Notes under the pieces: generated by a model
Database searches by the model: none
What the model was told of the DNA's origin: nothing
Seen by the model: the letters and a program-made list of their open reading frames with translations, nothing else
Position numbers and translations under genes: made by a program
Source: Sulfurovum lithotrophicum
GTDB taxonomy: Bacteria; Campylobacterota; Campylobacteria; Campylobacterales; Sulfurovaceae
DNA: 64,000 nt
NCBI RefSeq assembly: GCF_000987835.1
Contig: NZ_CP011308.1
Span: 434,001-498,000 of the forward strand
Direction: 5' to 3'
In this document: one piece after another, positions 34,873 to 61,317 of the stretch
Layout: every line of letters begins with the position of its first letter
Position numbering within the stretch: the first letter of the stretch is position 1

Positions 34873-35762
34873 AAGATCTCTTGTATCTGGGTGTGTTCAA
34901 TCTTTTCAAATTCTTTGTCTGGATCATTCCTGACCGTTTGCTGGTTTGGCTGATGAGAGGTTTTTCCTACCTTGTTTACATCGTCGACAGGAAGCACAGG
35001 AAGATAGCTAAAGTCAATCTTGACCTTGCATACGGAAATACATTGACAGAAGCAGAAAAAGAGCATATTGTCAGAGAATGCTACTTTTATCTGGCAATGA
35101 CACTGGCGGATTTTGTCAAGAACCAGGGGATCTCGAGGGAAAGACTGCTTTCGAAGGTCACTTTTAAAAATTCGTATATTCTTGAGGATGCACTGAAAGA
35201 GGGCAGAAAAGTGATCCTTGTGACAGCCCATTACAGTAACTGGGAACTGGTGGCACTCTCAATCGCTGCCAAATTTGGTCCATTGACAGGAGTGGGAAGA
35301 AAACTTGATTCGCCTACCATGGATGAAATTCTTAACCAGAACCGTCAACAGTTCGATATAGAGATGCTTGATAAAAAAGGTGCGATGAAATCCATGATAC
35401 AAGCTTTGAAACATAATCGCATGCTTGGATTGCTGGTCGATCAGAATACGAGTGAAAATGAAGGTGTGTTGATAGACTTTTTTGGAAAACCGGTCAGACA
35501 TACACCTTCTGCAGCTATTTTAAGCAGGCGTTTTGATGCGGTGATCATTCCGGTTTTCATTACGACAGAGGATCACAAGCACTACGAATTGACATTTTAT
35601 GATCCGATACAAACAGAAAAAACAGAAGACAAAGAGGGAGATATCCTCCGTTCGGTACAGCAACAGGCCAATATTACGGAAGAGATCATCAGAAAAAAGC
35701 CCGAAGAGTGGTTTTGGCTGCACCAGCGATGGAAGAACCAGTTTGAGAAATATTATGAATAG
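34869..35762 (+). CDS. lpxL: Lipid A biosynthesis acyltransferase (HtrB/LpxL type)
   Basis: The 297-residue protein belongs to the late lipid A acyltransferases that place a secondary acyl chain. It has an N-terminal membrane helix (about 8-25), the catalytic motif HYSNWE near residue 121-126, and downstream VDQNTSENEGVLIDFFGK with the expected acidic and Arg residues. The end WFWLHQRWK is typical. It overlaps waaC by four bases. Which acyl chain or position it uses (LpxL or LpxM) cannot be told, so the symbol is provisional. Confidence 0.85.
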   Translation: MKDLLYLGVFNLFKFFVWIIPDRLLVWLMRGFSYLVYIVDRKHRKIAKVNLDLAYGNTLTEAEKEHIVRECYFYLAMTLADFVKNQGISRERLLSKVTFKNSYILEDALKEGRKVILVTAHYSNWELVALSIAAKFGPLTGVGRKLDSPTMDEILNQNRQQFDIEMLDKKGAMKSMIQALKHNRMLGLLVDQNTSENEGVLIDFFGKPVRHTPSAAILSRRFDAVIIPVFITTEDHKHYELTFYDPIQTEKTEDKEGDILRSVQQQANITEEIIRKKPEEWFWLHQRWKNQFEKYYE

Positions 35763-36978
35763 TGCTATGATGAACATATTGCCAAAATTGAAAAGTGAAC
35801 AACTTGGATCATGGTTAGTGATCTTGTATGCTTTTACTTTACCAATTTCCGTAGCGATCAATAATATATTTGCAGCATTCATCTTACTTTTCTGGCTTTT
35901 GAAGGGAAATTATAAACAGACGTGGCAATTGATCAAAGACTCTAAAGTATTACAGGCATTTTTACTTTTTTTCCTGCTTCATATCGTAGGGTTGCTTTGG
36001 ACGGAAGATTTCTCCTGGGGACTGCATATGATCAAAAAGGAATGGATGTTCCTTTTTGCCCCTATAATTATGAGTCTGGTCAAAAAAGAACATATCCGTT
36101 ACTATGTTTCTGCCTTTTTGCTTGCTATGACGCTATCTGAGATTATCTCCTATCTGATCTGGTTCAAAGTTATTCCCCCCATTTTTCATGCAAGCGTATA
36201 TGATCCTACACCTTTTATTCATCATACTTCCTATAATCCCCTCCTGGCAGTTGCTATCTATTTGATGGGGTATTTTATTCTGTTTGACAAAACATTAAAT
36301 ATCAAAGAGAAAGCTGTACTTGGATTATTTATTGTGACGATGAGCATCAATATGTTCATTACGGGAGGGAGGGCAGGACAGGTCGGCTATCTTGTTGCCG
36401 TTATCATACTTTTTTTTCAATATTTCGATAAAAATTTTTTCAAAGCCCTTTTGGTTTCTTTCTTGGTAGTCGGAGGTGTTTCTCTTACAGCCTATTTTGG
36501 CAGTCAGATCTTTCAGGATAGAATTAAGCTGGCGGTCAGCCAGATAGAAAATTTTGATTCTGATACGAATAGCAGTGTAGGTTTGCGAATTAATTTTGCG
36601 ATCAATACGCTTGAAATGATCAAAGAGGACCCGCTTATAGGGGTGGGGACCGGGGATTTTAAAAAACGTTATGAAGAGATAAATATGGAAAAAACTCCTA
36701 ACATTGCAAGCACAAAACAACCACATAATATGTATTTACTGGAAATGGCCCAGTTCGGATTAGTGGGCCTTTTTATTTTGCTATATATTTTTTATTCACA
36801 GATCAGGTTTGCACAACGTGAAATGAATGATTTGCGCAAGAAAATAGGTATTTTTCTTCCGCTTTTTTTCATGGTGATCATGCTAAGTGATTCCTATTTA
36901 TTGGGACATCATACAACAAACCTTTTTGTATTGTTCAGTGCATTCCTGTATAGGCCTTTCAATGAAAAAAGTGAATAG
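35755..36978 (+). CDS. O-antigen ligase / polymerase family membrane protein (WaaL-like)
   Basis: From ATG 35755, which overlaps the lpxL stop, the protein has about 407 residues and 10-12 predicted membrane segments. The Wzy_C/WaaL pattern is seen in the large periplasmic loop: GGRAGQVGYL near 240, then LIGVGTGDFKKRYEEI and PHNMYLLEMAQFGLVG near 320-350. Such proteins join undecaprenyl-linked glycan to the lipid A core, or polymerise it. Its place between core transferases favours a ligase. The extra 52 codons upstream belong to the lpxL region. Confidence 0.78.
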   Translation: MNSAMMNILPKLKSEQLGSWLVILYAFTLPISVAINNIFAAFILLFWLLKGNYKQTWQLIKDSKVLQAFLLFFLLHIVGLLWTEDFSWGLHMIKKEWMFLFAPIIMSLVKKEHIRYYVSAFLLAMTLSEIISYLIWFKVIPPIFHASVYDPTPFIHHTSYNPLLAVAIYLMGYFILFDKTLNIKEKAVLGLFIVTMSINMFITGGRAGQVGYLVAVIILFFQYFDKNFFKALLVSFLVVGGVSLTAYFGSQIFQDRIKLAVSQIENFDSDTNSSVGLRINFAINTLEMIKEDPLIGVGTGDFKKRYEEINMEKTPNIASTKQPHNMYLLEMAQFGLVGLFILLYIFYSQIRFAQREMNDLRKKIGIFLPLFFMVIMLSDSYLLGHHTTNLFVLFSAFLYRPFNEKSE

Positions 36979-42856: not shown

Positions 42857-44287
42857 TCAGCAACTGTTTCCGGAGATCTTCCCGATGATCGATGAGGTAC
42901 TTTTCCCCTCAACGAAGCTGATGAGCTTCACTTCTTTGGCAATATCGCTGCCGACCACCTCTTTACCTTCATAATCCGCACCTTTGACAAGTACGTCAGG
43001 CATAACGCGTTTGATCAGTTCGTAAGGGGTGTCTTCCGTAAAGGGTACGACATAGTCGACACTTTCAAGAGCAGCCAGAAGAAAGGCTCTGTCCTCAAGG
43101 TCGTTGATAGGCCTTGACTCGCCCTTTAGTCTGGTAATACTCTCATCGGAGTTGAGGCCAACGATAAGGAAATCTCCCAATGCCTTGGCCTGTTGAAGGT
43201 AGCTTGCATGTCCGCGGTGAAGGATATCAAAACAGCCGTTGGTAAAGATGATCTTCCTCCCCTGTGCTCTCAGGCGCTTGGCTATTCGTTTTATCTGTGT
43301 GAAATCCTTGATCTTGCTTTCCGCCTGTCCTTTGTTGAGGGAGTGTTCATACTCTTCTATCTCGTTGAGCGTTGCCGTAGCCGAACCGACCTTTGCCACA
43401 ACGATAGCGGCCGCCTTGTTGGCAAATTCACAGGCTTCGGTAATATCAAGCCCGCTTGCCATGGCAATGCCCAGTGAGGCCAGTACTGTATCTCCTGCAC
43501 CTGTGACATCATAGACTTCTCTTGCAACCGTGGGGATGATGTGCATCCCGTCATTGAATATGGCGATCCCTTCTTCGCTCAGCGTGATGATACCGTAAGT
43601 AAGTGAGAGTTCGTTCTTGAGTTTGAAACCGGCTTCTCTGAGCGTATCCTGATCAGAAAGCTCAATGCCTGTGGCCAGGGATGCCTCTTTTTTGTTCGGT
43701 GTCAGAAGCGTGGCACCTTCGTATTTGCCGTAGTCAGTCCCTTTGGGATCTACCAATACCGGTTTGTCATGTGCTTTGGCCAGAGAGATGATGTCCCGTG
43801 TAAGCGTTGGAGTGAGCACACCTTTGCCATAATCGGAGAGCAGTACTGCATCACAGGAGAAGATGTTCTTCTGAAGGTCTGTGAGCAACGCATACTGTGA
43901 GCCCAAAGAGATATCTTCCCGGCTTTCATCATCAAAACGTATGATCTGCTGGTTGGAAGCGATTACGCGGCTCTTTCTGGTCGTTACACGTTTCTCCTGA
44001 CGAATGACGGCATCACAGTTTGCACCCGCCTCTCTAAGAAGCCTTTCTGCAAGTGCGGCATTGGCATCTTCCCCCAGTACTGTATAGACAGAAACTTCCG
44101 CATCCAGCGCAGTAAGGTTGTTGATGACATTTCCCGCCCCACCGAGTACATTGCTCTCTTTGGAAACTTCCAGTACCTGTACCGGTGCTTCAGGGGAAAT
44201 GCGTTCACACTCTCCCCAGATATAGTGGTCGATCATCAGATCACCCACTACGGCGATCTTCGCTTTTTTGGCCCGTATCTTATCCAT
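42857..44287 (-). CDS. hldE: Bifunctional heptose kinase / adenylyltransferase
   Basis: HldE phosphorylates heptose 7-phosphate at C1 and later couples the heptose 1-phosphate to AMP. The 476-residue chain has an N-terminal PfkB-type kinase (1-315: GDLMIDHYIWGE, GGAGNVINNLTALDAE, and the catalytic DVTGAGDTVLASLG near 253-266) and a C-terminal nucleotidyltransferase (345-476: FTNGCFDILHRGHASYL, the HxGH site). Both domains are complete. It overlaps hldD by eight bases. Confidence 0.95.
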   Translation of the reverse strand: MDKIRAKKAKIAVVGDLMIDHYIWGECERISPEAPVQVLEVSKESNVLGGAGNVINNLTALDAEVSVYTVLGEDANAALAERLLREAGANCDAVIRQEKRVTTRKSRVIASNQQIIRFDDESREDISLGSQYALLTDLQKNIFSCDAVLLSDYGKGVLTPTLTRDIISLAKAHDKPVLVDPKGTDYGKYEGATLLTPNKKEASLATGIELSDQDTLREAGFKLKNELSLTYGIITLSEEGIAIFNDGMHIIPTVAREVYDVTGAGDTVLASLGIAMASGLDITEACEFANKAAAIVVAKVGSATATLNEIEEYEHSLNKGQAESKIKDFTQIKRIAKRLRAQGRKIIFTNGCFDILHRGHASYLQQAKALGDFLIVGLNSDESITRLKGESRPINDLEDRAFLLAALESVDYVVPFTEDTPYELIKRVMPDVLVKGADYEGKEVVGSDIAKEVKLISFVEGKSTSSIIGKISGNSC

Positions 44288-45290
44288 GTGCCACTTCTGT
44301 CTTGTAGAGAGTTTTGATTTCGTCTATATACTCTTTGATCCCCGCTTCGAGTTCCCACTCCGGTGTATACCCGAGATACTCTTTTGAGGTACTGATATCC
44401 GCCTGTGTATGCATCTGGTATCCGGTGAAGGGGTTGGGGAAGTATTCGGTACCGTAGTCAGTACCCAGTTCTTTCTGGAGGATGTCGGCAATATCCTGAA
44501 AACTTCTCGGTTTGGAAGTTCCCACATTGTAGACACCGTTCTTTTTAGGTGCGCAGGCTTTGATGTTCGCCTGTATCACATCTTTGATATAGACGAAGTC
44601 ACGGACGATTTTATCGCTTCCTTCAAAGAGTCTCGGTGCTTTGCCCGAGAGTATTTGGTGGCCGAACTGAATGACCGTCGAAGCGGTTTTGTCCTTGAAG
44701 AATTCTCTTGCGCCGTAGACATTGAAGTACTTCAGTCCCACGATGGTCATATCGGGGTAGATATTCATATATCGGTAGGCTATCTGGTCCATGGCATATT
44801 TACTGAAACCATAAGGGTTCTCGGGATGTTCTTTGCCTACAGTCTGTGGGGAGGGCAGGGAGCCGTAAGTCGCGGCCGAAGAGGCATAGACCAGAACGGC
44901 GTTCATGCGTCTGGCCATTTCCAGTATGTCATAAAAAGAGTTGACATTGGTCTGCATGATGATCTCCTGATCATACACACGTGTATCGGAGATGGCGGCT
45001 TCATGGAATATGTAGTCAAAGTCGTAGGCTTCAAGTGCCTTGATGTCTTCCTTGGAATTGAGGTCGCCGCAGATCACGTCGCCATGAAAGCCTATCAGGT
45101 TCTTGTAGTGTCCGAAGCTTTTCAGGTTGCCGTTGGAAAACTTCTCTTCGCTTCTGAATTTGTCAAAGACGACAATGCTGCTTTGGGGAAAGTTCTCCTG
45201 AAAGTAGAATGCCAGGTTCGAGCCGATGAAACCGGCACCGCCGGTAATAAGTATGGTTTTGCCGTTAAAGTCTATATCATTGTATTTCAT
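44280..45290 (-). CDS. hldD: ADP-L-glycero-D-manno-heptose 6-epimerase
   Basis: HldD converts ADP-D,D-heptose to the L,D form used by WaaC and WaaF. From ATG 45290 it has about 336 residues. The Rossmann motif ILITGGAGFIGSNLA is near the start and a YGFSKYAMDQ active site near 160-169 gives the Tyr-x3-Lys pair. The longer frame to 45332 lies within gmhB. Its ATG shares bases with the gmhB TGA (ATGA overlap). The order gmhB-hldD-hldE makes one heptose operon. Confidence 0.95.
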   Translation of the reverse strand: MKYNDIDFNGKTILITGGAGFIGSNLAFYFQENFPQSSIVVFDKFRSEEKFSNGNLKSFGHYKNLIGFHGDVICGDLNSKEDIKALEAYDFDYIFHEAAISDTRVYDQEIIMQTNVNSFYDILEMARRMNAVLVYASSAATYGSLPSPQTVGKEHPENPYGFSKYAMDQIAYRYMNIYPDMTIVGLKYFNVYGAREFFKDKTASTVIQFGHQILSGKAPRLFEGSDKIVRDFVYIKDVIQANIKACAPKKNGVYNVGTSKPRSFQDIADILQKELGTDYGTEYFPNPFTGYQMHTQADISTSKEYLGYTPEWELEAGIKEYIDEIKTLYKTEVAHG

Positions 45291-45814
45291 GCAGTTATTA
45301 TAGCCGGATTTTCCTCTAAAAAGCGTTTGCACTCTGCTATTGCAGGAAAAAAATAGTCCGCCTTCTCGATCTTCTTATTGCCGATTGCAATGCTGTGGCC
45401 GATACCGGCATTTCCCGCAAGATCGATGTCGCTCTGTTTGTCGCCGATCATCCAGGAACGGGACAGGTCGATATCGTAGGTTGCCATTATTGCTTCTATC
45501 ATACCTGTTTCCGGTTTTCTGCAGCAGCAGTTTTCTTCCGGTGCATGGGGGCAGTGCTTTACCTCTTCTATGTGAATACCCTGCTGTTCAAACTTCTCTT
45601 TCATCCAGCTTGTCACTTTCTGAAAGTCCCTTTCACCATAATATCCCCGGCCGATCCCGGACTGGTTGGTCACCACAAAGATCTGATACCCCGCATCGGA
45701 AAAAAACCTGACGAGATCGAAGATTCCCTCGACGAATTTGAAATCTTCTATCTTGTGTACATAGCCATGGTCCACATTGATGACCCCGTCACGGTCCAGA
45801 AAGAGTGCTTTCAT
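45287..45814 (-). CDS. gmhB: D-glycero-D-manno-heptose 1,7-bisphosphate 7-phosphatase
   Basis: GmhB removes the 7-phosphate between the two HldE reactions. From ATG 45814 it has 175 residues. The HAD-family motif FLDRDGVINVDHGYV (D7 and D9) is followed by VVTNQSGIGRGYY, a zinc-binding CPHAPEENCCCRKP loop near 91-104, and the late acidic motif MIGDKQSDIDLA. The in-frame extension to 45967 is antisense-like and overlaps wbaP. Five bases separate it from the wbaP-like gene upstream. Confidence 0.94.
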   Translation of the reverse strand: MKALFLDRDGVINVDHGYVHKIEDFKFVEGIFDLVRFFSDAGYQIFVVTNQSGIGRGYYGERDFQKVTSWMKEKFEQQGIHIEEVKHCPHAPEENCCCRKPETGMIEAIMATYDIDLSRSWMIGDKQSDIDLAGNAGIGHSIAIGNKKIEKADYFFPAIAECKRFLEENPAIITA

Positions 45815-45819
45815 ATGAT

Positions 45820-47139
45820 TCAGCTTGCCCCTTCCCGAACGAGAACGGTTTTGATGGTCTTGATAAGGATGACAAGGTCCATCCACAGGTTCCAGTTCCT
45901 TATATACCAGACATCCAATTCCACACGTGTCTGAAAATCCACATCCGACCTGCCACTGACCTGCCATAGGCCTGTGATGCCCGGTTTTACAGAAAGTATA
46001 GTTTCGATCTCTTCGCCTATGATCTCTTTTTCGTCAAGCATATAGGGACGGGGACCTATGAAGCTCATGTCACCTCTGAATACATTGAAGATCTGCGGCA
46101 GTTCGTCCAGAGAAGTACGGCGAAGGAAGTGCCCGACCTTCGTAACACGGGGGTCATGTTCATACTTATGGTATTTTTGATAATAGTCTATCTCTTCAGG
46201 GTGCTCTTTCAGATACGTTTCGAGCATTGCGTCACTGTTCTCATACATAGTTTGGAATTTATAGCAGTTGAAGGGTTTCCCGTGCTTTCCCAGGCGTTTC
46301 TGCTTGAAAAATATTTTTTCATCAGGGTTTTCACGTTTAATTTTGTAAGCGACTGCAAGCATGACCGGGATCAGAAAAGGAAACATCAAGAGTGAGAGCA
46401 TGAAATCAGATATGTTTTTGAATTCTGTTCTGAGTGGGCTTTTCAGACGGTTCTGAAAGACGATGAGATTGGTGCGGGTATTGGAAAGTTCATAGATGAA
46501 TGAATGGGTCAGATTATATTCGTTGATCAAAGGAATGAATATAACTTCATGGTGTTTTTTGACTTCTTTATGCAAGATAGCCTGTGTAGCATCTATACCC
46601 AGCTCTGTCGAATTGATAAAAACGGTCTTGGGCTCTTCCTTGTGTACTTCAATGTACCCCAGGTAATGATTGGTTTTTATCTCCTCCGATAGGAATGTAT
46701 CATGACTGTAAATTTTGACTTTACGTTGCCATAGACCTATTTTGTAGAGATATTTCTTTCCGATGTTCTTGAAGAGAGGTATGAAAAAAGAGATGGACAG
46801 GAAAATGAATATGATAGTGGCGCGTGAATATTCATTGATCGTTTTGGTCATCGCAAGAATGGCAAGAATGAGAATCAGTGACATGAAAAGTGCTTTAAGC
46901 ACAAGCCGGCTTTCATGCCAAAAATCATATCGTCTGGTATAGATGCCCTCATTGAACATCAAACCTATGGGAAAAACATAGATCATCCACAATGAAAGAT
47001 AGAGTGAAAGTGTATGGCCGAATTGATGTTCAAAGGAAGCACCCAGAAAATAACGTATCTCATAGCCTATCACTATTGAAATAAATATCGCGAGCAGGTC
47101 AAGCAATAATAGAATGATTTTACTATAAAGTTCTTTCAC
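45820..47139 (-). CDS. Polyprenyl-phosphate sugar-phosphotransferase (WbaP/WcaJ type)
   Basis: The 439-residue protein starts a glycan by moving a sugar-phosphate (often Gal-1-P or Glc-1-P) to undecaprenyl phosphate. It has four to five N-terminal membrane helices (about 7-125), a middle CoA-binding-like domain, a further helix near 245-265, and the catalytic bac_transf domain: [21 protein letters not shown] near 276-296, [27 protein letters not shown] near 340-366, and [17 protein letters not shown] near 384-400. All catalytic motifs are present. It lies at the end of the polysaccharide locus, just before gmhB. The sugar is not known. Confidence 0.88.
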
Positions 47140-50949: not shown

Positions 50950-51840
50950 TTACTTGTCCAAATAGAGATTTTGAATTGCATTGAGAAAATCCTTTGTATA
51001 GTTATAGGCGCTTTTATGGGTCAAGTGGTGACCATCTGCAGTCACATACTGTGTATAATCCGGTAATGGAAGCCATGGGTCCTTGAAAATACTTTTGATG
51101 ATCGCCCTGCGCTTCTGTGCCTGGGGCGTGTTCGCCAATTCTGGATCTATTGGCATTTCGAAAAATACGATCTGAGTTCCTTGCTTTTCAAAATAATGTA
51201 TCAGTCTTTTCACCGCTTTCAGATTTCTGGTATTCAAAGGCTTGGCATATGCTGCTTTCCGCTGCTTCATCATAAGGTTGAAACGCTGTATGTTGATATC
51301 TCTTTTTGAATCCCTGTAGCGTTTTGGACCTTTTGGCCTGGCAGGAGTCTGGCTGTTCTGTTTGGAACAAAAAGATTTGGACAACAGTACATTGAGAGGC
51401 TGGTATTTTTCCTGAAGTGCAGGAAGGTATGCCTTGACCCTCCACCAGACAGGATAAAAAAGCGTGTTGATCATTTTTGTACTTTTAAATCGAAAAATAA
51501 GGTTTGTTTCAACATAGAGACGTTTGGGTATATAGCCTGTTTTTTTGATGATCTCAAGTCCGGTCAGTACACTTCCTCCGGAAAAAGAGAGATTGAAAAA
51601 GGTTGGTGGCAGCAGTGTCGGATTGAGCCGGGCGCTCAATGAGGAACCTACAATGATATTTTCTGCTTTTGGGCTGTAAATAAACTCCTGTGCAACAGCG
51701 GTGTTCCTTTGCCACTGGTTCTGATAATGAGTGATCTTTGGCGTACATACGGCTATATAGATGTTATAGAGTAGGAACATTGCCAAAAAACTCCAGAATA
51801 TCCCGGAGATCTTTTTAAAATTGGAAATAAATAAATTCAC
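50950..51840 (-). CDS. SGNH-like membrane-anchored partner of MBOAT protein
   Basis: The 296-residue protein has one N-terminal membrane helix (about 12-32) and a periplasmic domain. A strand ENIIVGSSLSARLNP near 60-74 fits the GSS/GDS-type beginning of AlgJ/AlgX/DltD-like SGNH domains, and HHLTHKSAYNYTKDFL near 270-285 gives a late DGHH element. It overlaps the MBOAT gene by 26 bases; this pairing is usual for O-acylation of surface glycans, with the MBOAT protein passing acyl groups outward. Overall family likeness is weak, so the call rests largely on context. Confidence 0.6.
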   Translation of the reverse strand: MNLFISNFKKISGIFWSFLAMFLLYNIYIAVCTPKITHYQNQWQRNTAVAQEFIYSPKAENIIVGSSLSARLNPTLLPPTFFNLSFSGGSVLTGLEIIKKTGYIPKRLYVETNLIFRFKSTKMINTLFYPVWWRVKAYLPALQEKYQPLNVLLSKSFCSKQNSQTPARPKGPKRYRDSKRDINIQRFNLMMKQRKAAYAKPLNTRNLKAVKRLIHYFEKQGTQIVFFEMPIDPELANTPQAQKRRAIIKSIFKDPWLPLPDYTQYVTADGHHLTHKSAYNYTKDFLNAIQNLYLDK

Positions 51841-53230
51841 CGCTGCTCCCGCTATTGATAAAAATGTTTAAAAGCATGATCGCATAGACAATGCTTGTAT
51901 CAAGATAATTTTTCCCTGTTCTTGTCCGAAGCAGATAGTTCACATAGTACAGTGCGACAGGGAAAGTGTAAAGTGCCACATAGGTAATGATCGTTTGATT
52001 GACCGGGTAGTTGAAGTTATGTATCATCGCATTACAATAAAGTATGACCTGTGGGAATTCAGGCAGTTTGAACAGCAGCCATCCCAGTGTAACCAGTATA
52101 AAGACCATCAATATCCTCACTATATCGAGGTATCTGTTGTTTGGTATTCCGTAGCGTTGAAGAATGAACCGCTCTCCTGCAAGAAGGATACCGTGGTAGG
52201 CACCCCAGAACATGTAGCTCCATGCGGCGCCATGCCACAAACCACCCAGAAGCATGACAATGAAGAGGTTAATATAGGTCCGGACCCTGCCACGTCTATT
52301 TCCTCCCAGAGGGATATAGAGGTATTCTTTCAACCATGTGGACAGCGTAATATGCCATCGGGTCCAGAACTCGGAAAAACTTTTGGATATATAGGGGAAG
52401 TTGAAGTTTTTGGGAAGATCATACCCATAGAGTTTCGCCACACCGATAGCGATCAGGCTGTATCCTGCGAAGTCGGTGAATATCTGTATCGAGTATCCGA
52501 ACAGCATGGTCATAAGAGTATAGGATGAATGTACCTGGAAGTAGGGGAACATCATCCAGAATGTCTGGTCTTTAAGGTTGTCAGCAATGACCATTTTCAA
52601 AAAATAGCCGATGATCAATATCTTGAAAGCAGATTCAAAATTTATCTCTTCAAGGTATTTGGTTTTGATCTGAGGATAGAACTCATATGCCTTGACGATA
52701 GGCCCGGCAACCAGTTGTGGGAAGAAAGAGATGAAAAAGATGGTATGGATATAGTGACGGATAAAATTTCTGTCTACCTTGAACAAAGGACATTCGCTTT
52801 GATGGTTGGAGCGGTACAGGTCTACAACCAGACTGATACCCTGAAAGGTATAGAATGAGATACCTACAGGCAGAGGAATGGAAACAAGGAAGTCGCCTAT
52901 GCCGTCGAGTGACCGGAAGTGTTCAAGTGCCCGTCCGAACAGAGGACTGTATTTGAAGAACGATAGGACAGCCAGGTTGAAAGCAACCCCCAGAAATGCA
53001 TACTGTTTTTTTCTTCTTTTATTGTTTTCAAAATATACAAAATAACTTGCCACAGCATTGATGGAGGCTGAACTGAGAAGAAGGAGGGACAGAATAGGCT
53101 GACCGTAGGTATAGAAAACAAAACTCGATATGATCAAAATATATATTTGGTATTTCCGAAGGAACTTATTGTAATAAAGTACGAGTGTTACTATCACCAA
53201 AAATAAAAACGGAAAACTATTGAAAAGAAT
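51815..53230 (-). CDS. MBOAT family O-acyltransferase (AlgI-like), AUU start likely
   Basis: This membrane O-acyltransferase has about ten helices and the AlgI motifs: PVGISFYTFQGISLVVDLYR near 110-130, FWTRWHITLSTWLKEYLYIPLGGNRRG near 285-310, and the catalytic His in GGLWHGAAWSYMFWG near 325. The first usual start (TTG, 53200) would remove the conserved opening LFNSFPFLFLVIV. This stretch is encoded in frame just upstream, beginning after an ATT at 53230 that has AAAAGG seven bases before it. No ATG, GTG or TTG lies upstream before the in-frame stop at 53269-53267. An AUU start (471 residues) is therefore most likely. It pairs with the SGNH-like gene. Confidence 0.85.
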   Translation of the reverse strand: MLFNSFPFLFLVIVTLVLYYNKFLRKYQIYILIISSFVFYTYGQPILSLLLLSSASINAVASYFVYFENNKRRKKQYAFLGVAFNLAVLSFFKYSPLFGRALEHFRSLDGIGDFLVSIPLPVGISFYTFQGISLVVDLYRSNHQSECPLFKVDRNFIRHYIHTIFFISFFPQLVAGPIVKAYEFYPQIKTKYLEEINFESAFKILIIGYFLKMVIADNLKDQTFWMMFPYFQVHSSYTLMTMLFGYSIQIFTDFAGYSLIAIGVAKLYGYDLPKNFNFPYISKSFSEFWTRWHITLSTWLKEYLYIPLGGNRRGRVRTYINLFIVMLLGGLWHGAAWSYMFWGAYHGILLAGERFILQRYGIPNNRYLDIVRILMVFILVTLGWLLFKLPEFPQVILYCNAMIHNFNYPVNQTIITYVALYTFPVALYYVNYLLRTRTGKNYLDTSIVYAIMLLNIFINSGSSGEFIYFQF

Positions 53231-53372: not shown

Positions 53373-54401
53373 TTAACGCTTTTTGAAATATCCAAATAAT
53401 TTTTGTAAGAATGGTAAAGGTTCAACGGCAGTATTGTCGTTCAGCTGACTGAGATAGCCGAGAAGATTTTCTTTGAAATCATCATTGAGGTCTGCTATAT
53501 CGTTGACACTGTTCTCGATCTTGTGCATGCTTTTGGGCGCAATGGACAATTGTGTATTGTTTTTTATTTTATAGTCGTTGAAATCCATGTCGACCAAAGT
53601 ATAGTCATGAATTTTTGTTTTGACCTCTTCCAGATATGCCTGGTCGTAATTCAGTTTGTCCATATCCACTATCAGGTTGGCATGATCGTTCGCAAGCTGA
53701 AACGAAGAGACCCAGATATAGTAGAAGAATTTATAGTGCTCTTTGATCGTAAAGTTTTTGGACAGGTCCATGCAGACACTCAAGTCGGCACCGACATTAT
53801 CACTGCTGTTAAAATCCACTCTTTTATCGAGGAGTAGGTCAGACACTTTTGGGTCCAGCAGAACGATATAGAGATTGATTGTGAGAAATACGTTTTTCCC
53901 AGCTTTTCCTCTTTGATAATACGACTCGAACTGGTCCCTGGGGTTCCTGAGAAGAAAAAGGTTCAAACTGTCGGCATAATGCTGTTTGAACCAGTCTATT
54001 CTCATGGAAGTTCTGTTGAACTGCAGTACCGGTATCTTCTCTTTAGGTGTTGTGTCAATGAGGTTGTCAATATAGTGTTTCAGTACATCGGATTTTTGGA
54101 CCTTGAAAAACTCTTTGTACGCAAAATCAGTATCGTAGAACGGCAGGCATTCACTGCCGGGACCGAATGCCGTATGGAATTCATAGAAATGCGGCTTCCC
54201 CAACTCCGGATGGTTCATGACATCCGTAGCTTTTTTATCATAGTTCCATATATCCAGTGATTCTTTTTTCAGTCGCACCAGGTCATGGTGCAACGGTTCG
54301 TAATAGGTATAAAACGCATCATAGGACCTGAATTTGTTGAATATATAGGTACTTCCGGCTCTAAACATGCTGTGTAAAAATACAGTCTTTCTATTTTCCA
54401 T
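53373..54401 (-). CDS. Sulfotransferase-like protein 1
   Basis: The 342-residue protein has a PAPS-type P-loop near the start (HSMFRAGSTYIFNKF, 10-24) and a 3'-phosphate-binding element FLLRNPRDQFESYY near 149-162 with the Arg and Ser expected of carbohydrate sulfotransferases. The rest is not closely like a family I can name. It is the last gene of an eight-gene overlapping operon with wzm-wzt and shares its first base region with a GT2. It probably sulfates a sugar of the exported glycan, but a substrate cannot be read from sequence. Confidence 0.68.
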   Translation of the reverse strand: MENRKTVFLHSMFRAGSTYIFNKFRSYDAFYTYYEPLHHDLVRLKKESLDIWNYDKKATDVMNHPELGKPHFYEFHTAFGPGSECLPFYDTDFAYKEFFKVQKSDVLKHYIDNLIDTTPKEKIPVLQFNRTSMRIDWFKQHYADSLNLFLLRNPRDQFESYYQRGKAGKNVFLTINLYIVLLDPKVSDLLLDKRVDFNSSDNVGADLSVCMDLSKNFTIKEHYKFFYYIWVSSFQLANDHANLIVDMDKLNYDQAYLEEVKTKIHDYTLVDMDFNDYKIKNNTQLSIAPKSMHKIENSVNDIADLNDDFKENLLGYLSQLNDNTAVEPLPFLQKLFGYFKKR

Positions 54402-55243
54402 TATTTTCTTCCTATCAAAGTTTTTATTTTATCTTTTAATTTTGTTTTTATACTGCCGGCAAAGGCTTTCTGCATGAATCTATCCAACGCTTTGTCTATA
54501 TAGGCTTTATCCTCTTTGTCGATGAGCCCGGAATTCTTTTTATAAATGTATTTGAGCCATTTGACATGTTTGTTGTTGTTTGCAGCGGACAGGCCTTCTC
54601 CATGCCTTCTGTAGCCTATCCCTTCCACACCGGTAAAATAGAATGCATTATGCTTTGCCAGTCTCAGTTTCAAGTCCCAGTCCTCATATATCGGGATGTC
54701 GATATCAAATCCACCTGTATCGAAATACTGCTGTTTTGTAAATATGAAATCTCTGGGTACCATACAGTCCCTCGCAAAGATATTTTTAAAGATATTTCCC
54801 TCTTTTACAGTGTTCTTTGCATTAGGGAATAGCCGTTCGCCCTCTTTATCGACCAGAACAATATCTGAAAAAGCAATGATGTTGGAACGACCTTCGTTGC
54901 GATACTTTTTGAGGATGGTCATCTCTTTTTCGAGTTTACGCGCATCCATATAGTAGTCGTCACTGTCAAGCGTCGTAATGTAGTCTCCGGAAGCGAGCCG
55001 GATCGCGGTATCCCTGTTCCTGGTCACTCCCTGGTTCTTTTCGTTGAAAATGACTTTGATGAAAGGGTATTCTGCCTCATACTTTTTTAAAATCTCCTGT
55101 GAACCGTCGGTGGAAGCATCATCGATGATAATGATTTCAATGTTCTTGTAGGTCTGCGCCAAGACACTGCCGATACACTCATCTATGTATCTGCTATTGT
55201 TGTAATTGGGCACAATGACCGATAATGGGGGATTGTTTGTCAT
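54401..55243 (-). CDS. GT2 glycosyltransferase
   Basis: The 280-residue GT-A protein has LSVIVPNYNNSRYIDECIGSVLAQ, IIDDASTDGSQE near 40-51, TTLDSDDYYMDARKLEKEM with the DSD metal motif near 91-95, and GIGYRRHGEGLSAA near 205-218. The end is Lys-rich. It overlaps the next GT2 by four bases and the sulfotransferase by one. Donor and acceptor are unknown. Confidence 0.85.
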   Translation of the reverse strand: MTNNPPLSVIVPNYNNSRYIDECIGSVLAQTYKNIEIIIIDDASTDGSQEILKKYEAEYPFIKVIFNEKNQGVTRNRDTAIRLASGDYITTLDSDDYYMDARKLEKEMTILKKYRNEGRSNIIAFSDIVLVDKEGERLFPNAKNTVKEGNIFKNIFARDCMVPRDFIFTKQQYFDTGGFDIDIPIYEDWDLKLRLAKHNAFYFTGVEGIGYRRHGEGLSAANNNKHVKWLKYIYKKNSGLIDKEDKAYIDKALDRFMQKAFAGSIKTKLKDKIKTLIGRK

Positions 55244-55968
55244 TTTATCCGCTTTTTTATTTTATTCAAATAGTATTGTACTATTGTATTCAGATAATAT
55301 TTTTTTACTTTGAAACTGTTATGGTATTGCGATACCACTTTGTATCGTTCCTTCGTTCTTCCCATGAAATTGATATCCGAGAAGCCGCCGGCAAGAAATA
55401 CCGCTATGGGAAAATCGACTTTGAGAAACTTTTTGCCTTCCATATACCGTGAAAAGTAGTTTTCATAATCACATACTATCTTATAGGCCAGATCATAGGG
55501 TTTGTCTTTCATGAGGTTAGTTCTGGAAAACAGACTTTGATGGGAAAAACATATCTTTTGCCACATCAGTTCCAGAGGTCTGGTCTTGACAAGATGCTTT
55601 GTGTCGCTATCTTTCCAGTAATGTTCACCGTAAATGAAATCATAGTCCGAAACGTCGTGCCCTTCAAATATTTTTGACAATACATCATCGGAGGCAAAGC
55701 TGTCCCCGGCATTCATGAAATTGATCCACTCACCTGTTGCCATCTGTATGGCTTTGTTCATAGCATCATAGATCCCCTTGTCTTTTTCACTCACTATGAC
55801 ATCGATCTGGTCTTCATACTTGTTGATGATATCTAGTGTGTTGTCTTTTGATGCACCGTCGATGATGATGTACTCTATATGAGGATACGTTTGGGACAGA
55901 ACGCTTTTGATCGTTTCTTCTATAGTATCTTCGCAGTTATACACAACGGTTACGACAGTGACTGTCAT
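55240..55968 (-). CDS. GT2 glycosyltransferase, paralogue of 50101-50928
   Basis: The 242-residue GT-A protein shares VSEKDKGIYDAMNKAIQMATGEWINF-like core stretches (about 73-105) and SHQSLFSR with the GT2 at 50101. Its opening VTVVTVVYNCEDTIEETIKSVL and IIDGASKDNT near 37-46 are typical. It overlaps both neighbours by four bases. Two related transferases at two ends of the locus suggest duplication and possibly similar linkages made at different positions. Confidence 0.83.
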   Translation of the reverse strand: MTVTVVTVVYNCEDTIEETIKSVLSQTYPHIEYIIIDGASKDNTLDIINKYEDQIDVIVSEKDKGIYDAMNKAIQMATGEWINFMNAGDSFASDDVLSKIFEGHDVSDYDFIYGEHYWKDSDTKHLVKTRPLELMWQKICFSHQSLFSRTNLMKDKPYDLAYKIVCDYENYFSRYMEGKKFLKVDFPIAVFLAGGFSDINFMGRTKERYKVVSQYHNSFKVKKYYLNTIVQYYLNKIKKRIK

Positions 55969-57518
55969 TGCACGATCCTTTTGATGAGTGTAAACGGATA
56001 GGCCAGTAATTTGGCAAGTTTATATTTTTTTGAATTCAATATCTGGGATAGTTGCAGGTCCCTCTTATCGATTTCTTTTTGTTTTTTTGTTAATAACTCA
56101 TTCTTTTCCTGCAGTTTTTCAAGCAGGAATTTGTTTTCTTCGCCTATCTTGGAATGGTTACCGAGATATTTTTCGTACGTATCCTGGTTCTCTGGTGACA
56201 TGGCTTGGACAAACTGCGATAAAGACTGCTGCACGGCTATGAGTTTCAGGATGTCCGATTCTTCGTCAAAAGGTTTGACGATCTTGTCTTTATGCAGTTC
56301 CCTTCTGCTGAGCCGTATCAGTTCTCTGAGCCATTTTCTCCTGAAAAATATATTTTCTTCAATCAGAGGTATCACTGCCTGTTTGCCGTCTATTACTTCT
56401 TCAAAAAGTGTTTTCCATTGTGTGACGATCGTTTCATAATCAAACTTCCTGCTGACAAACTCCCTGCCGGCTTTGCCATACCGGTATGCCTCTTGTGGGT
56501 TTTTCAGGAAAAAAAGTATATTGTCCACAAGTGCATCTTCTGTCGTTCCAAGGCGACCTGTTTTGTTGTTGATCACCGTATCCAGAAGTCCCCAGTCACA
56601 CCGTGAGACCACCGGTGTGTTCGAAGCCTGGAATTCCAGAGCACTTCCGGGACAGTTCTCCGTCAGTGCGCTCGGATTCACAACACCGACCTGTGCTTTG
56701 GCCAGATATTCATTTTTTTCTTTTCCGAGCACACCCAGAAAATGTACGGAGGGCAGTATGCCGCCCTTTTCATCCGAGAGGAAAGGTCTGATCTCCTGAC
56801 TTTCGAATGCTTCATCAGCCACATTCCACGGACCCAGCTGCTGATCACGGTTGTAAAGTTTTCCGCTGCCTATGACATAAAGCTGTGCAGAGGGATGCTG
56901 CAATAAAATTTTTTTCCAGGCTCTTGCCAAAAGTCCAAAACCTTTTGCCTTGATCATACTGCCGACATAGACTACCATATTCGGATCTTTTTCTGTGATG
57001 GGCCTGGTTTCCACGGTATCTGGGTCAAAACCATTGTAAATGGTACATGCTTTATTGATGATCGGATGGTGACGCAAAATGTCAAGCTGCTCCTGACTTA
57101 CAGTCACATATCGTTTTATATTCGTTTTTTCCGCCAGAGTGTTCAGCATCTTTTCCGACAAGGTATTGTGGACCCATGCTATTGCAGGCAGTTTGAATTT
57201 ATCTATATTGTGGATGAGATACCAATTCTCTTTATTCTCAACAGGCCGCCATATAAAGATATCGCAGTCGCTTTGACTGCATTTTACATAAGCATCATAG
57301 CAGTCATCACATCGCACAGTAGAGAATTTGCCATCGAGCTGAGTCTCATTCAGTGTATAATAGACGAATTCAGTATCATCCGAAATAAGTTTTTTGAAGT
57401 AGTAGGGCATACTGACGAACATATATTCGGTCCCGCCTATTCCCGGGTTCCCTTCCTCCGGCCTTGACAGGTCTATATTTCTGATCTTCCGGTTTTCCAG
57501 GAACAATCCTATCTTCAT
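55965..57518 (-). CDS. GT4 glycosyltransferase with C-terminal coiled coil
   Basis: The 517-residue protein has a GT-B fold with NPGIGGTEYMFVSMPYYF near 24-41, VVYVGSMIKAKGFGLLARAWKKI near 183-205 and the donor-site ENCPGSALEFQASNTPVVSR near 290-309. Residues about 400-500 are Glu/Lys-rich and should form a coiled coil (EKLQEKNELLTKKQKEIDKR), perhaps holding the glycan enzymes together. It overlaps both neighbours by four bases. The donor is unknown. Confidence 0.8.
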   Translation of the reverse strand: MKIGLFLENRKIRNIDLSRPEEGNPGIGGTEYMFVSMPYYFKKLISDDTEFVYYTLNETQLDGKFSTVRCDDCYDAYVKCSQSDCDIFIWRPVENKENWYLIHNIDKFKLPAIAWVHNTLSEKMLNTLAEKTNIKRYVTVSQEQLDILRHHPIINKACTIYNGFDPDTVETRPITEKDPNMVVYVGSMIKAKGFGLLARAWKKILLQHPSAQLYVIGSGKLYNRDQQLGPWNVADEAFESQEIRPFLSDEKGGILPSVHFLGVLGKEKNEYLAKAQVGVVNPSALTENCPGSALEFQASNTPVVSRCDWGLLDTVINNKTGRLGTTEDALVDNILFFLKNPQEAYRYGKAGREFVSRKFDYETIVTQWKTLFEEVIDGKQAVIPLIEENIFFRRKWLRELIRLSRRELHKDKIVKPFDEESDILKLIAVQQSLSQFVQAMSPENQDTYEKYLGNHSKIGEENKFLLEKLQEKNELLTKKQKEIDKRDLQLSQILNSKKYKLAKLLAYPFTLIKRIVQ

Positions 57519-58528
57519 GATGTCGCCTTGTCTGTACTGCCCGGGTAGTTGTATTTATCTACAGGAAGAGCAAGTGTCTCTTTTAAAAAGAGGTTTCCTT
57601 TGGAAAACTTTTGAGTGAGTCTTGTCCTGATTTCCTCTGTCATTGTCAATTCTTTGTCTCCTTTTTCTTTTAAGAACCGTTCGATAGTACGATTTATTCT
57701 GCTGTGGTCCAACTTGTGTAGAAATGACTTTGATATATATTTTTCTTTCAGTGTCCTGTAGGTATTGAATCTGTTTGACACCCCTTTATTCTCATGTGCT
57801 TCTTTAAGAAGGTTGTATGTCTCGTTAGCAGAAATTCCCATGAATGAAGAGATATCATCGGCAAATTTTCTTTTTTCGAACACCAGGTCTTCAAATAAAA
57901 AGACGCCGACCCTGTCCTTACCGAATAGCTTCTGATAGTAGCGAATAATCTTGTCGTATTCCAGCATGGATATCTGTTTGATACTTTGATCCCAATAGAT
58001 CATTTTGACCCATTTGTCAAATTCCATCGGTATGGATGTGTCAAAGCATCTGGGGTCGAAAGGTCTGTCTCTGTACTGCGACCTGAGCCATTCGATCTGG
58101 TTTCTGAGAATGATGATGATCTTTGCCTCCGGAAAGAAGGCATGAAGACGTTGTGCTTTCACACCATTGTCCTTATGGGCGTAAAATACCGAGGCAAATC
58201 GTTCGTTGCTCAAAACGATCTTTCTGTCCCGTACCCGTTCCTGATCCGTTATATAGGGACGTACGCTTTTGCTATAGAGTACCGTAGTGTCATTGTAATC
58301 ATACTCTATGCTGTCCATCTGTATGAGGTTGTCATAGAATGTACGGAGATACGGATCTTTCTCATACAGGGAAGCTTCATGTGCTTCTTCTGTATCGATA
58401 CCTATATTCGTCCCCGGGTACAATCCCAGATTGAATAGTTGTGAATGTTTGTGGAACAGGTGTTTCTGCAGGGTGGTACTCGCAGCTTTCGGATAACCGA
58501 TATGGATCAGGATATTGTTTCCCATCAT
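57515..58528 (-). CDS. Sulfotransferase-like protein 2
   Basis: The 337-residue protein has a clear PAPS P-loop IGYPKAASTTLQKHLF (10-25) and the second phosphate element IIIILRNQIEWLRSQYRD near 137-154. The middle holds NERFASVFYAH and VFLFEDL, also frequent in bacterial sulfotransferases. It overlaps the GT4 by four bases and is separated from the third sulfotransferase by three. Likely role is transfer of sulfate from PAPS to a sugar hydroxyl. Start may be the second Met. Confidence 0.78.
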   Translation of the reverse strand: MMGNNILIHIGYPKAASTTLQKHLFHKHSQLFNLGLYPGTNIGIDTEEAHEASLYEKDPYLRTFYDNLIQMDSIEYDYNDTTVLYSKSVRPYITDQERVRDRKIVLSNERFASVFYAHKDNGVKAQRLHAFFPEAKIIIILRNQIEWLRSQYRDRPFDPRCFDTSIPMEFDKWVKMIYWDQSIKQISMLEYDKIIRYYQKLFGKDRVGVFLFEDLVFEKRKFADDISSFMGISANETYNLLKEAHENKGVSNRFNTYRTLKEKYISKSFLHKLDHSRINRTIERFLKEKGDKELTMTEEIRTRLTQKFSKGNLFLKETLALPVDKYNYPGSTDKATS

Positions 58529-58531
58529 CCG

Positions 58532-59158
58532 CTACCCGATATGAAAGTCATAGTCAAACAATTCGAAATCTTTTTGATAAAGCCTGTATACCGTTTCCTG
58601 CATATCTTCGGTATACAATGTTCTGTAATCTTTTTTATTCGATGTTTTATTCTGATGAGAGAGATGAACTGGGATACCCAATGTGTCGGCTACATGGGAA
58701 AAATCATTGTGGAGCGTTTCAAATTTTCCTATATAATCCACAATAATCTCTCCTTTTTGGTCACAGACATATTTGTATTGCGGAATGAAGTGTGTCCATT
58801 TCAGGACTTTTTCTCTGAAGACCTCATTTTGCAGGTTTTGGATGAAATGTGTGAAGTCCTCTATGGCGGACAAATTCTCTTCCGACCATTTCTTATCGAA
58901 CTCATTCCGTCCTCCGTTCTTTAGAAAGAAGAAAGCGGATGCCAGGCGGTCGTAAGGATTTCGCACAAATGAGAATTTGAAATAATCGTTGAACTTCTGT
59001 TTGTCTTCGCCTTTGTACATCAACGCCCATTTGTGACCGACCTTTTCCCGGAACAATGCCTCTTCTATACTGATGCCCGCCACCTTCGGAATATGGATAT
59101 AGATACATTTACATAGATCGTTATAAGGTTTGAAAATAGATATTTTTTTTTCCTTCAT
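58532..59158 (-). CDS. Sulfotransferase family 2 protein
   Basis: The 208-residue protein matches the Sulfotransfer_2 pattern of carbohydrate sulfotransferases: IYIHIPKVAGISIEEALF (19-36) as PAPS loop, KFSFVRNPYDRLASAFFFL (61-79) for 3'-phosphate binding, and DYIGKFETLHNDF near 141-153. It directly follows wzt with no gap. Together with the other two it predicts a sulfated exported polysaccharide. PAPS-forming genes are not in the window. Confidence 0.83.
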   Translation of the reverse strand: MKEKKISIFKPYNDLCKCIYIHIPKVAGISIEEALFREKVGHKWALMYKGEDKQKFNDYFKFSFVRNPYDRLASAFFFLKNGGRNEFDKKWSEENLSAIEDFTHFIQNLQNEVFREKVLKWTHFIPQYKYVCDQKGEIIVDYIGKFETLHNDFSHVADTLGIPVHLSHQNKTSNKKDYRTLYTEDMQETVYRLYQKDFELFDYDFHIG

Positions 59159-60511
59159 TCAGCTGTCCTTTTCCAGTAGCCGGTAGTCCGGTACCTGCTG
59201 GAGCGAAACGATCCCGTGAACTGTATGGGAAAGAGGCAGGACTTTGAAGGCCAGGCCGTCGATGACCCGGTTCAGTAGTTGTCTCTCTCCGTCTAGCATG
59301 TAGGTTGTACCCGCATTGGCATAATATACGCCTGCTGTCAGCAAACAGATGAATTCCCATTTTGCAGCATAGGTATCGCCACTATGAGCTTCTTCGATGA
59401 GCATATCGTAATTCAAACTTCCCGTCGATGTGATCTGAAACCCCTTTTCATTCTGTATGCTCATTCCGAATGCCACCTCTTCACACGTTTCCTTGAATGT
59501 GAGTTGATAGCAATAGTAATACTTTTCTCCGTGTACCAGCGCATTCACTGTTTCGCCTTCAATGGTTTCGATACGGATGTCCGCTATTTCCACTTTGCTA
59601 TCATCATAGACCGTTCTTGATTTTGGAGTAAAGTTGGGAATGAAATATGGGTGATCACCTTTCTTTTCCGAATTTTCTGATCTGTCGGAAGGTTTTTTTC
59701 TTTCAACACTCTGTTTTGCAGTTTTTGCTTTTTTGGTCCTCTGCAGAGAATGTTTCAGCTCCTTCTGTTGCTGTTTTGGTGCAAAGAGAAATTTTTCATA
59801 ATGTGTCGTAACTGTTTTTGCGTCAGCATCGAGCAATATGTTCCCGTCAGACAGGAAGATAGCTCTAGTACACAACTGTTTGATGGAGTTGGCATCATGT
59901 GAAACGTACAGGATGGTCTTGCCACTTTGAAAGAATTCTTCCATCTTGGCATAACATTTGCGTTTGAACAGTACATCACCTACCGCAAGTACTTCATCGA
60001 GTATCAGTATTTCCGGGTCTATGTGTACGGCCACGGCAAAACCGAGCCTGGATTTCATGCCGCTTGAGTATGTCTTCAGTGGCTGGTAGATGAAATCACC
60101 GATATCGGCAAACGCGAGGATGTCATCAAGCTTCTCTGCTATCTCCTCTCTGCAGAATCCCAGAATAGTCCCGTAGAAAAAGATATTCTGCATCCCTGTG
60201 AACTCAGGGTTGAATCCCGAACCGAGTTCCAGCAGGGCGGAGATCTTTCCGTTGACCGCAATGGAGCCTTCATCAGGGGTAAGGACCCCGGTGATCAGCT
60301 TGAGCAGGGTCGACTTTCCGCTTCCGTTCTTACCCACGATACCGAGGATCTCCCCTTTTTGTATTTGGAGGTTAAGGTTTCTGGTAGCATAGAACTTTTT
60401 ATGATACTGTTTCCCACTGAAGCTCAGTGCCTCTTTCAGTCTGTCTTTGGGGGAGTTATACAGTTTGTAATACTTCGAAACATTTCTGATCGATATGGCA
60501 ATATCGTTCAT
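59159..60511 (-). CDS. wzt: Wzt-type ABC transporter ATPase with glycan-binding domain
   Basis: The 450-residue protein has an ATPase domain (1-250) with Walker A VGKNGSGKSTLL near 59-70, signature YSSGMKSRLGFA near 148-159 and Walker B ILILDEVLAVGD, the last typical of O-antigen/teichoic acid exporters. A Lys/Ser-rich linker (about 255-290) leads to a beta-rich Wzt_C-like domain (about 300-435), which in known systems recognises the glycan end. The Wzm permease gene overlaps it by one base. Export of a finished polymer across the inner membrane is predicted. Confidence 0.92.
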   Translation of the reverse strand: MNDIAISIRNVSKYYKLYNSPKDRLKEALSFSGKQYHKKFYATRNLNLQIQKGEILGIVGKNGSGKSTLLKLITGVLTPDEGSIAVNGKISALLELGSGFNPEFTGMQNIFFYGTILGFCREEIAEKLDDILAFADIGDFIYQPLKTYSSGMKSRLGFAVAVHIDPEILILDEVLAVGDVLFKRKCYAKMEEFFQSGKTILYVSHDANSIKQLCTRAIFLSDGNILLDADAKTVTTHYEKFLFAPKQQQKELKHSLQRTKKAKTAKQSVERKKPSDRSENSEKKGDHPYFIPNFTPKSRTVYDDSKVEIADIRIETIEGETVNALVHGEKYYYCYQLTFKETCEEVAFGMSIQNEKGFQITSTGSLNYDMLIEEAHSGDTYAAKWEFICLLTAGVYYANAGTTYMLDGERQLLNRVIDGLAFKVLPLSHTVHGIVSLQQVPDYRLLEKDS

Positions 60512-61317
60512 TATGCCACCTCTGCAAAGTGTGGCCTGAGCCTTTTGAATACGGTAATGCCGGACCAGAGCATTACTGCCGTGAAGGTCCAGTAGTAGAG
60601 GGTTTCATACGGTTTTTCCCAAAAACCGATATGGTTGATGATAGAATCCCTGTACCCTTCTACAATATAGACGGCGGGATTGAGTTTGATGATCCACTGA
60701 TACCGTTCCGGAATTCTGGAAAGATCCCAGAAGATGGGTGTAAGCCAGAAACCGAAGGTAACAAGGACGCCGACGAACTTGGAGATGTCCGGTACGAAGA
60801 TATTGGTCGATGAGGTCAGCCACCCGATACCGAGGAGCAAAGCAAGCATGGCGGTGAAGTAGTAAATGATCTGCAGGGTATAGAGGGTAGGGTATATGCC
60901 GTTCAGTGCGGCAATGAAGATCGCGATGAAAATAAAAAAGAGATGCGGTATGGAGGAGCTCATCAGCTTGACGATAGGTAGTATACTGAGCCGGAAATCG
61001 ACTTTTTTCAGGAGGAAAGCATGTTTTTTGATAATGGCTGCCCCCGCATTCAGATTTTCAGCAAGGTACATCCATGCGATCATACCGCCGATAAGATAAA
61101 CAGCAAAAGGCACGCCTTCACTGCCTCCACCGCTTTTGAAACCCATGGTGAAAACGAGGTAGAGTACGCCAATAAAAAGCAGGGGTTGGAGATAGACCCA
61201 GACAACGCCAAGATAGGATCCCATATACTGCTGCTGGAAATCACGCTTCGCCAATTCAAAGAGTATATCACGCTTATTGTAAATATCATGCAGGAAGTTT
61301 TGGGTTCGTTTAATCAT
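60511..61317 (-). CDS. wzm: Wzm-type polysaccharide ABC permease
   Basis: The 268-residue ABC-2 permease has six hydrophobic segments and the family opening ELAKRDFQQQYMGSYLGVVWVYLQPLLF near 20-48. SSTNIFVPDISKFVGVLVTFGFWLTPIFW near 170-198 is also characteristic. It works with Wzt. It heads the operon wzm-wzt-two sulfotransferases-GT4-GT2-GT2-sulfotransferase. No ribosome site precedes the ATG and the promoter is close, so its leader is short. Confidence 0.93.
   Translation of the reverse strand: MIKRTQNFLHDIYNKRDILFELAKRDFQQQYMGSYLGVVWVYLQPLLFIGVLYLVFTMGFKSGGGSEGVPFAVYLIGGMIAWMYLAENLNAGAAIIKKHAFLLKKVDFRLSILPIVKLMSSSIPHLFFIFIAIFIAALNGIYPTLYTLQIIYYFTAMLALLLGIGWLTSSTNIFVPDISKFVGVLVTFGFWLTPIFWDLSRIPERYQWIIKLNPAVYIVEGYRDSIINHIGFWEKPYETLYYWTFTAVMLWSGITVFKRLRPHFAEVA

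Follow-up and report, generated by a model that had tools for sequence, protein, structure and literature searches.

What are three sulfotransferase-like genes doing inside a glycan-export operon of Sulfurovum lithotrophicum, a member of the Campylobacterota? The question arises from a stretch of 64,000 nucleotides (contig NZ_CP011308.1, positions 434,001 to 498,000), hereafter the window, in which these genes, here called ST1, ST2 and ST3, lie together with three glycosyltransferase genes and with wzm and wzt, the genes of an ATP-binding cassette (ABC) transporter. The genome analysed comprises 2,217,891 bases in one contig, C1, and is rated 100% complete. Our answer, to which we assign a probability of roughly 0.78, is that the three proteins sulfate a lipid-linked O-polysaccharide before its export by Wzm/Wzt, using a dedicated supply of 3'-phosphoadenosine 5'-phosphosulfate (PAPS), and that the lipopolysaccharide (LPS) of this bacterium is probably sulfated.

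In the proposed scheme, an operon with cysD, cysN and cysC would supply PAPS, and the cytoplasmic ST1, ST2 and ST3 would sulfate the undecaprenyl-linked O-polysaccharide during its assembly at the inner membrane face. Wzm/Wzt would then export the sulfated chain, the O-antigen ligase would join it to the lipid A-core, and CysQ would clear the product, 3'-phosphoadenosine 5'-phosphate (pAp). We infer the activity of the enzymes, their acceptor sugars, the O-antigen nature of the product, and the action of all three on the same polymer. Sulfation at several positions is possible, and any of the three enzymes might work solely at the end of the chain or use some other acceptor. If the scheme is true, this bacterium keeps a PAPS pathway solely for sulfating its surface glycans, which bears on biofilms and on attachment to animals.

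Three sulfotransferases in an export operon

On the minus strand, the genes run in the order wzm, wzt, ST3, ST2, GT4, GT2, GT2, and ST1, with spacings of -1, 0, +3, -4, -4, -4, and -1 bases, and by this layout they form one operon. A preliminary description of this DNA had placed three genes with PAPS-type loops in a tight operon with wzm, wzt and three glycosyltransferases, and had held that the three are not close copies of each other. This picture stands: the three open reading frames and their loops were confirmed, Pfam assigns all five of the other genes, and BLASTP finds the three proteins mutually unrelated beyond their motifs. An origin of ST1-ST3 by gene duplication was likewise rejected, as their mutual comparison gives no more than a 35-residue motif match between ST1 and ST3 (E ~0.4-0.6).

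Each protein has, near its N-terminus, the loop for the 5'-phosphosulfate of PAPS, and each keeps the 3'-phosphate motif R-x7-S. The respective motifs are HSMFRAGSTY (loop FRAGST) and LLRNPRDQFES in ST1, GYPKAASTTL (loop YPKAAST) and ILRNQIEWLRS in ST2, and HIPKVAGISI (loop IPKVAGIS) and FVRNPYDRLAS in ST3.

ST3 is a clear member of the Sulfotransfer_2 family. Its predicted model has a predicted local distance difference test score (pLDDT) of 91 and is nearest to the heparan sulfate 6-O- and 2-O-sulfotransferases (Z 9.5-10.1, with 174-177 residues aligned), although these are longer, animal enzymes with an identity of 14-17% to the 208 residues of ST3. A Foldseek search with the same model was weaker (best E 7e-3), the first 13 rows all being structures of the sulfotransferase family. 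Among its relatives, K25 in the 5'-loop is at least 90% conserved, and R66 and S74 are invariant.

ST2 lies at the Pfam cut-offs, with 22.5 bits for Sulfotransfer_1 (cut-off 22) and 26.5 bits for Sulfotransfer_3 (cut-off 27), and it matches a solved sulfotransferase, PDB 3rnl, with E=3.6e-8, or E=1.4e-9 when a four-sequence profile is used. K14 of the 5'-loop, R142, and S150 are invariant in its set, and we regard it as a probable sulfotransferase.

ST1 matches no Pfam or NCBIfam family, single-sequence scans of genome contigs, viral contigs and a phage collection returned no relatives, and a search of the PDB with its sequence profile gave none either. A tblastn search of plasmids did find relatives, in Ensifer and Methylocystis, and an alignment seeded with these led to 14 further loci in Rhodospirillales, Nitrosomonas, Desulfocapsa, Nitrospirota, Actinomycetes, and others. 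Across the 16 aligned sequences of the family, T18 and the pair R152/S160 are invariant and R14 and S17 are nearly so, while Y33, E35, H38, and H64 are each invariant or nearly invariant. The predicted model of ST1 (pLDDT 76, predicted template modeling score 0.79) has PAPS sulfotransferase-fold proteins as all of its 50 best structure matches, with Z values of 10.0-14.0. The top match is 5wrj (Z 14.0, root mean square deviation 3.3 over 208 residues), and the model resembles TPST, SULT, NDST, and 3-OST structures, mostly with PAP or PAPS bound, over about 190-245 aligned residues. ST1 is thus modeled as having a sulfotransferase fold.

Because the 5'-loop and R-x7-S are kept in all three proteins, which also have family or structure matches and, for ST1 and ST3, predicted folds, we consider them three mutually unrelated, putative PAPS-dependent sulfotransferases. 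As to the PAPS pockets, for which structure prediction had been suggested, the binding motifs are intact throughout and the sulfotransferase fold is predicted for ST1 and ST3, with ST2 judged by its sequence.

The supply of PAPS

The preliminary description had asked for a source of PAPS in the genome, and one is present. An operon at C1:295077-302819, on the same chromosome as the window operon and some 190 kb from it, contains cysD, cysN, a fusion of DUF2061 with adenosine 5'-phosphosulfate (APS) kinase, cysC, cysQ, rmlA, rmlC, rmlD, and rmlB. ATP sulfurylase, APS kinase and pAp phosphatase are therefore all encoded together, and CysD, CysN, CysC, and CysQ each score above the cut-off of their NCBIfam models. 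A search for PAPS/APS reductase with PF01507 found none in the genome, its only matches being CysD, MnmA, and GuaA, while the same search gave matches in 14 of 14 control genomes. Since no such reductase competes for it, PAPS appears from the gene content to be made for sulfation alone, and its use in assimilation was rejected.

Gene sets of this kind are known from chemically proven sulfated capsules of Vibrio (PMC11641403) and Cobetia (PMC11766843), which combine PAPS genes, rml genes, sulfotransferases, and ABC export. The capsule cluster of Vibrio sp. KMM 8419 has, like S. lithotrophicum, dedicated cysD/N/C, rml genes, several sulfotransferases, and ABC export, and its sulfated product was proven by nuclear magnetic resonance (PMC11641403). 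That gammaproteobacterium makes a Kps-type group 3 capsule and its PAPS genes are second copies (PMC11641403); in S. lithotrophicum, by contrast, a Wzm/Wzt O-antigen operon encloses the sulfotransferase genes, and the PAPS is not shared with an assimilatory reductase. Cobetia marina KMM 1449, with PAPS genes and cysQ between kps operons, rhamnose genes, and a sulfotransferase (PMC11766843), resembles a block of Kps, PAPS and rml genes that S. lithotrophicum also has, but the window operon is a separate, O-antigen-type locus. The window locus would be a further example of this known kind, set in an O-antigen operon and in a group for which such systems are little described.

Two observations were made in the PAPS operon and its surroundings. 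The DUF2061-APS kinase fusion (L009:13427-14152 = C1:297426-298151) occurs in PAPS operons, usually adjoining cysC, in at least 12 genomes (relatives in L113, L118, L119, L121-L125, L127, L129, and L130), and in 12 of 12 fusions the CysC motif DGDN[IV]R is replaced by DSKD[IV]R; the fusion may be a membrane-bound kinase or one with an altered substrate. In addition, two near-identical, adjoining methyltransferase-glycosyltransferase-like genes are found at L009:5332-9214, the second being split over two frames.

Which polymer may be sulfated, and where on the chain

The window locus is more likely to specify an LPS O-antigen than a capsule, since its Wzt carries a Wzt_C domain and a WaaL-type ligase, heptose-core and lipid A genes, and an initiating transferase are encoded in the same block. 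Besides the genes for ADP-heptose supply (Table 1), the window also encodes heptosyltransferases, a lipid A acyltransferase, a SIS-domain GmhA-like gene, and an MsbA-type ABC exporter. Of the earlier idea of a sulfated, ABC-exported capsule, the sulfated and ABC-exported polysaccharide is retained, with three sulfotransferases in the export operon, while the label of capsule gives way to that of O-antigen.

The strain does have capsule genes elsewhere. KpsC and KpsS are encoded at C1:304007-306911, directly after the PAPS-rml operon, and KpsM/T-like genes at about C1:179.6-181.0 kb adjoin another sulfotransferase-like gene, which is located downstream of them (L135:14043-15428, ~C1:184042-185427) and has no Pfam match. 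Because of these two associations, the strain is likely to make a sulfated capsule with its Kps genes as well. They also lend something to the view that the window polymer itself is a capsule or a free exopolysaccharide, perhaps identical to the sulfated material of the Kps locus, but we consider this unlikely, given the Wzt_C domain of the window transporter, the presence of WaaL and LPS core genes in the same block, and the restriction of the KpsC/S family to C1:304-307 kb, with no member in the window.

Several points weigh against sulfation of the O-polysaccharide by ST1-ST3. With the Kps capsule genes next to the PAPS operon, the capsule could be the main destination of the PAPS. The model of ST1 is of moderate confidence, and the 5'-loop of ST3 (PKVAGIS) has Ile where most relatives carry Thr, an Ile that also occurs in the close relatives L024 and L025, at a position where some viral relatives vary as well. 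Finally, the wb cluster of Aeromonas salmonicida A450 has, as here, a wzt gene (438 amino acids) followed directly by a gene for a 216-amino-acid protein with a sulfotransferase domain, to which nothing in the known O-antigen structure corresponds: no sulfate was seen in the repeat unit (PMC4483657). That cluster has one sulfotransferase, compared with three here.

The same arrangement suggests a different role, in which ST3, and perhaps ST2, beside wzt is a chain terminator: a sulfate at the non-reducing end would stop growth, Wzt would export only capped chains, and the other sulfotransferases would decorate. Where Wzt has a binding domain, this domain reads the terminal moiety and only capped chains are exported (PMC11231755, PMC3482155). 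Escherichia coli O8/O9a, with its WbdD terminator, shares with the present locus the carbohydrate-binding Wzt and the export of a lipid-linked chain; its caps are methyl or methyl-phosphate, some Klebsiella types have 3-deoxy-D-manno-octulosonic acid (Kdo), and the portions of these sources consulted describe no sulfate cap (PMC3482155, PMC11231755). A sulfate-free repeat unit, as reported for A. salmonicida, is what would be expected of a group found only at the chain end. Four other Campylobacterales genomes likewise have a sulfotransferase gene immediately after wzt, in the arrangements wzm-wzt-ST-ST (G109 and G126), wzm-wzt-ST (G120), and wzt-ST (G242), with differing sulfotransferase subfamilies. 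Like known terminators, the second sulfotransferase-like protein of both G109 and G126 carries a long heptad-repeat C-terminus.

Against such a role, neither ST2 nor ST3 shows a coiled coil by eye; here, only the GT4 glycosyltransferase looks so, with a heptad-rich C-terminal stretch and a basic amphipathic tail. Relatives of ST3 in Roseobacteraceae and others are found in flippase-type or other loci without an adjoining wzt. The count of wzt-adjacent cases is biased, because the regions were picked for holding sulfotransferases, and the rough chance estimate for the adjacency, 7e-5, was made post hoc. The Wzt binding domains of the four other loci are 16-31% identical to that of the window, too diverged to show a shared ligand. 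We therefore treat a terminator role for ST3, or perhaps ST2, as a tentative and rather improbable alternative, and it is similarly doubtful that these loci form a widespread class in which a sulfotransferase right after wzt caps the non-reducing end of the O-antigen, with the sulfate serving as the export signal that the carbohydrate-binding domain of Wzt recognizes. The locus does offer a test case for whether a sulfate at the chain end can act as a signal for O-antigen export. In G242, two genes of the PDDEXK_2 transposase family (L138:6377-8355) are next to wzt and the sulfotransferase, a sign of mobility.

It is improbable, too, that at least one of ST1-ST3 is inactive as a sulfotransferase, or acts on a lipid, a protein or a small molecule. 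The acceptor is not readable from a sulfotransferase fold, the change of Thr to Ile affects the PAPS loop of ST3, and the ST1 model has its highest Z to protein-tyrosine sulfotransferases; but relatives conserve the binding motifs, and each of the three genes lies, with overlaps, among wzt and glycosyltransferase genes. A CysC-like kinase makes a phosphoramidate nucleotide for capsule modification in Campylobacter jejuni, and a cytidine diphosphoramidate kinase is named in the literature on the group, but that the APS kinase genes here yield such a nucleotide and not PAPS is highly improbable, as one operon encodes CysC together with CysD, CysN and CysQ, each scoring above its NCBIfam cut-off. 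A role of the locus in defence was considered and dropped, PADLOC giving no match for it.

Distribution, relatives and neighboring genes

The preliminary description had called sulfated capsules little known in Campylobacterota. This agrees with the literature searched on sulfotransferases, largely outside subscription journals, in which no sulfated glycan of Campylobacterota or Sulfurovum was found, but the genes themselves are spread over the order. Among 249 genomes of Campylobacterales, Sulfotransfer_3 occurs in 25 and Sulfotransfer_2 in seven (none of the six congeners), a strong APS kinase match in 63, and these scattered matches contradict the notion of an order free of sulfotransferases. 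In favor of the proposed scheme, cysQ in G173 and cysC in G199 are each followed immediately by a relative of ST3. In G141, G196, G125, G212, G053, and G066, other sulfotransferases lie no more than about 10 kb away from PAPS genes. The AstA of Campylobacter is an arylsulfate sulfotransferase, an enzyme different from ST1-ST3.

No relative of ST1 was found in the other genomes of this set. The ST1 family, absent from Pfam and NCBIfam, is nevertheless spread over several phyla and is often fused to glycosyltransferases; in Nitrosomonas and Nitrospirota, ST1-like domains are part of proteins of about 1500 amino acids with glycosyltransferase and methyltransferase domains (L100:8001-12497 and L105:3831-8360). 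Such fusions in other phyla count in favor of glycan sulfation. Relatives of ST3 are also carried by viruses, with 39 viral-contig loci in IMG/VR (L165-L203) and a few phage records.

Table 1. Genes of the window discussed in the text, with positions counted from its first nucleotide
Feature	Position	Strand	Evidence
O-antigen ligase (WaaL type)	35677..36978	+	PF04932 E=7.3e-22
HldE-, epimerase (HldD-like)-, and GmhB-like genes (ADP-heptose supply)	42857..45967	-	HldE read from sequence
Initiating polyprenyl-phosphate sugar transferase	45820..47139	-	PF02397 E=3.7e-66
Protein overlapping the MBOAT gene	50950..51840	-	no Pfam or NCBIfam match
MBOAT O-acyltransferase (DltB/AlgI-like)	51815..53200	-	PF03062 E=1.3e-26
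ST1, 342 amino acids, putative sulfotransferase of a family outside Pfam	53373..54401	-	open reading frame, conserved residues, fold model
GT2 glycosyltransferase	54401..55243	-	PF00535 E=2.3e-36
GT2 glycosyltransferase (WcaE-like)	55240..55968	-	PF00535 E=2e-30
GT4 glycosyltransferase, 517 amino acids	55965..57518	-	PF00534 E=1.8e-16
ST2, 337 amino acids, putative Sulfotransfer_3/1-type sulfotransferase	57515..58528	-	Pfam; PDB 3rnl
ST3, 208 amino acids, putative Sulfotransfer_2 sulfotransferase	58532..59158	-	PF03567 E=1.2e-23
Wzt, ABC ATPase with C-terminal carbohydrate-binding domain	59159..60511	-	PF00005, PF14524 (Wzt_C) E=8.9e-20
Wzm, ABC-2 permease	60511..61317	-	PF01061 E=8.6e-16

A gap of 172 bases separates ST1 from the MBOAT gene, beyond which there are more glycosyltransferases on the same strand. 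The G+C content is mostly 38-43% at 46-60 kb of the window, compared with 45-49% at 40-46 kb and 45-47% at 59-63 kb, which fits horizontal acquisition of the low-G+C stretch without proving it. Immediately upstream of wzm, at 61390-62715, lies a gene whose product, perhaps a surface fiber, carries a Peptidase_S74 (endosialidase chaperone) domain at its C-terminus.

A second sulfotransferase cluster of the genome (C1:2066772-2080221; L020 and L021) has six sulfotransferase-like genes, one of which encodes a 778-amino-acid protein with two such domains, as well as a fusion of a PIG-L deacetylase with a GT2. Repeats of the form FDPEYYL..NPLxHYxxxGxKExRxPN make up one protein of this cluster (L021:1792-3300), and similar-looking repeats join the ST1-like and GT4 parts of an Ensifer protein (L067:7941-11687).

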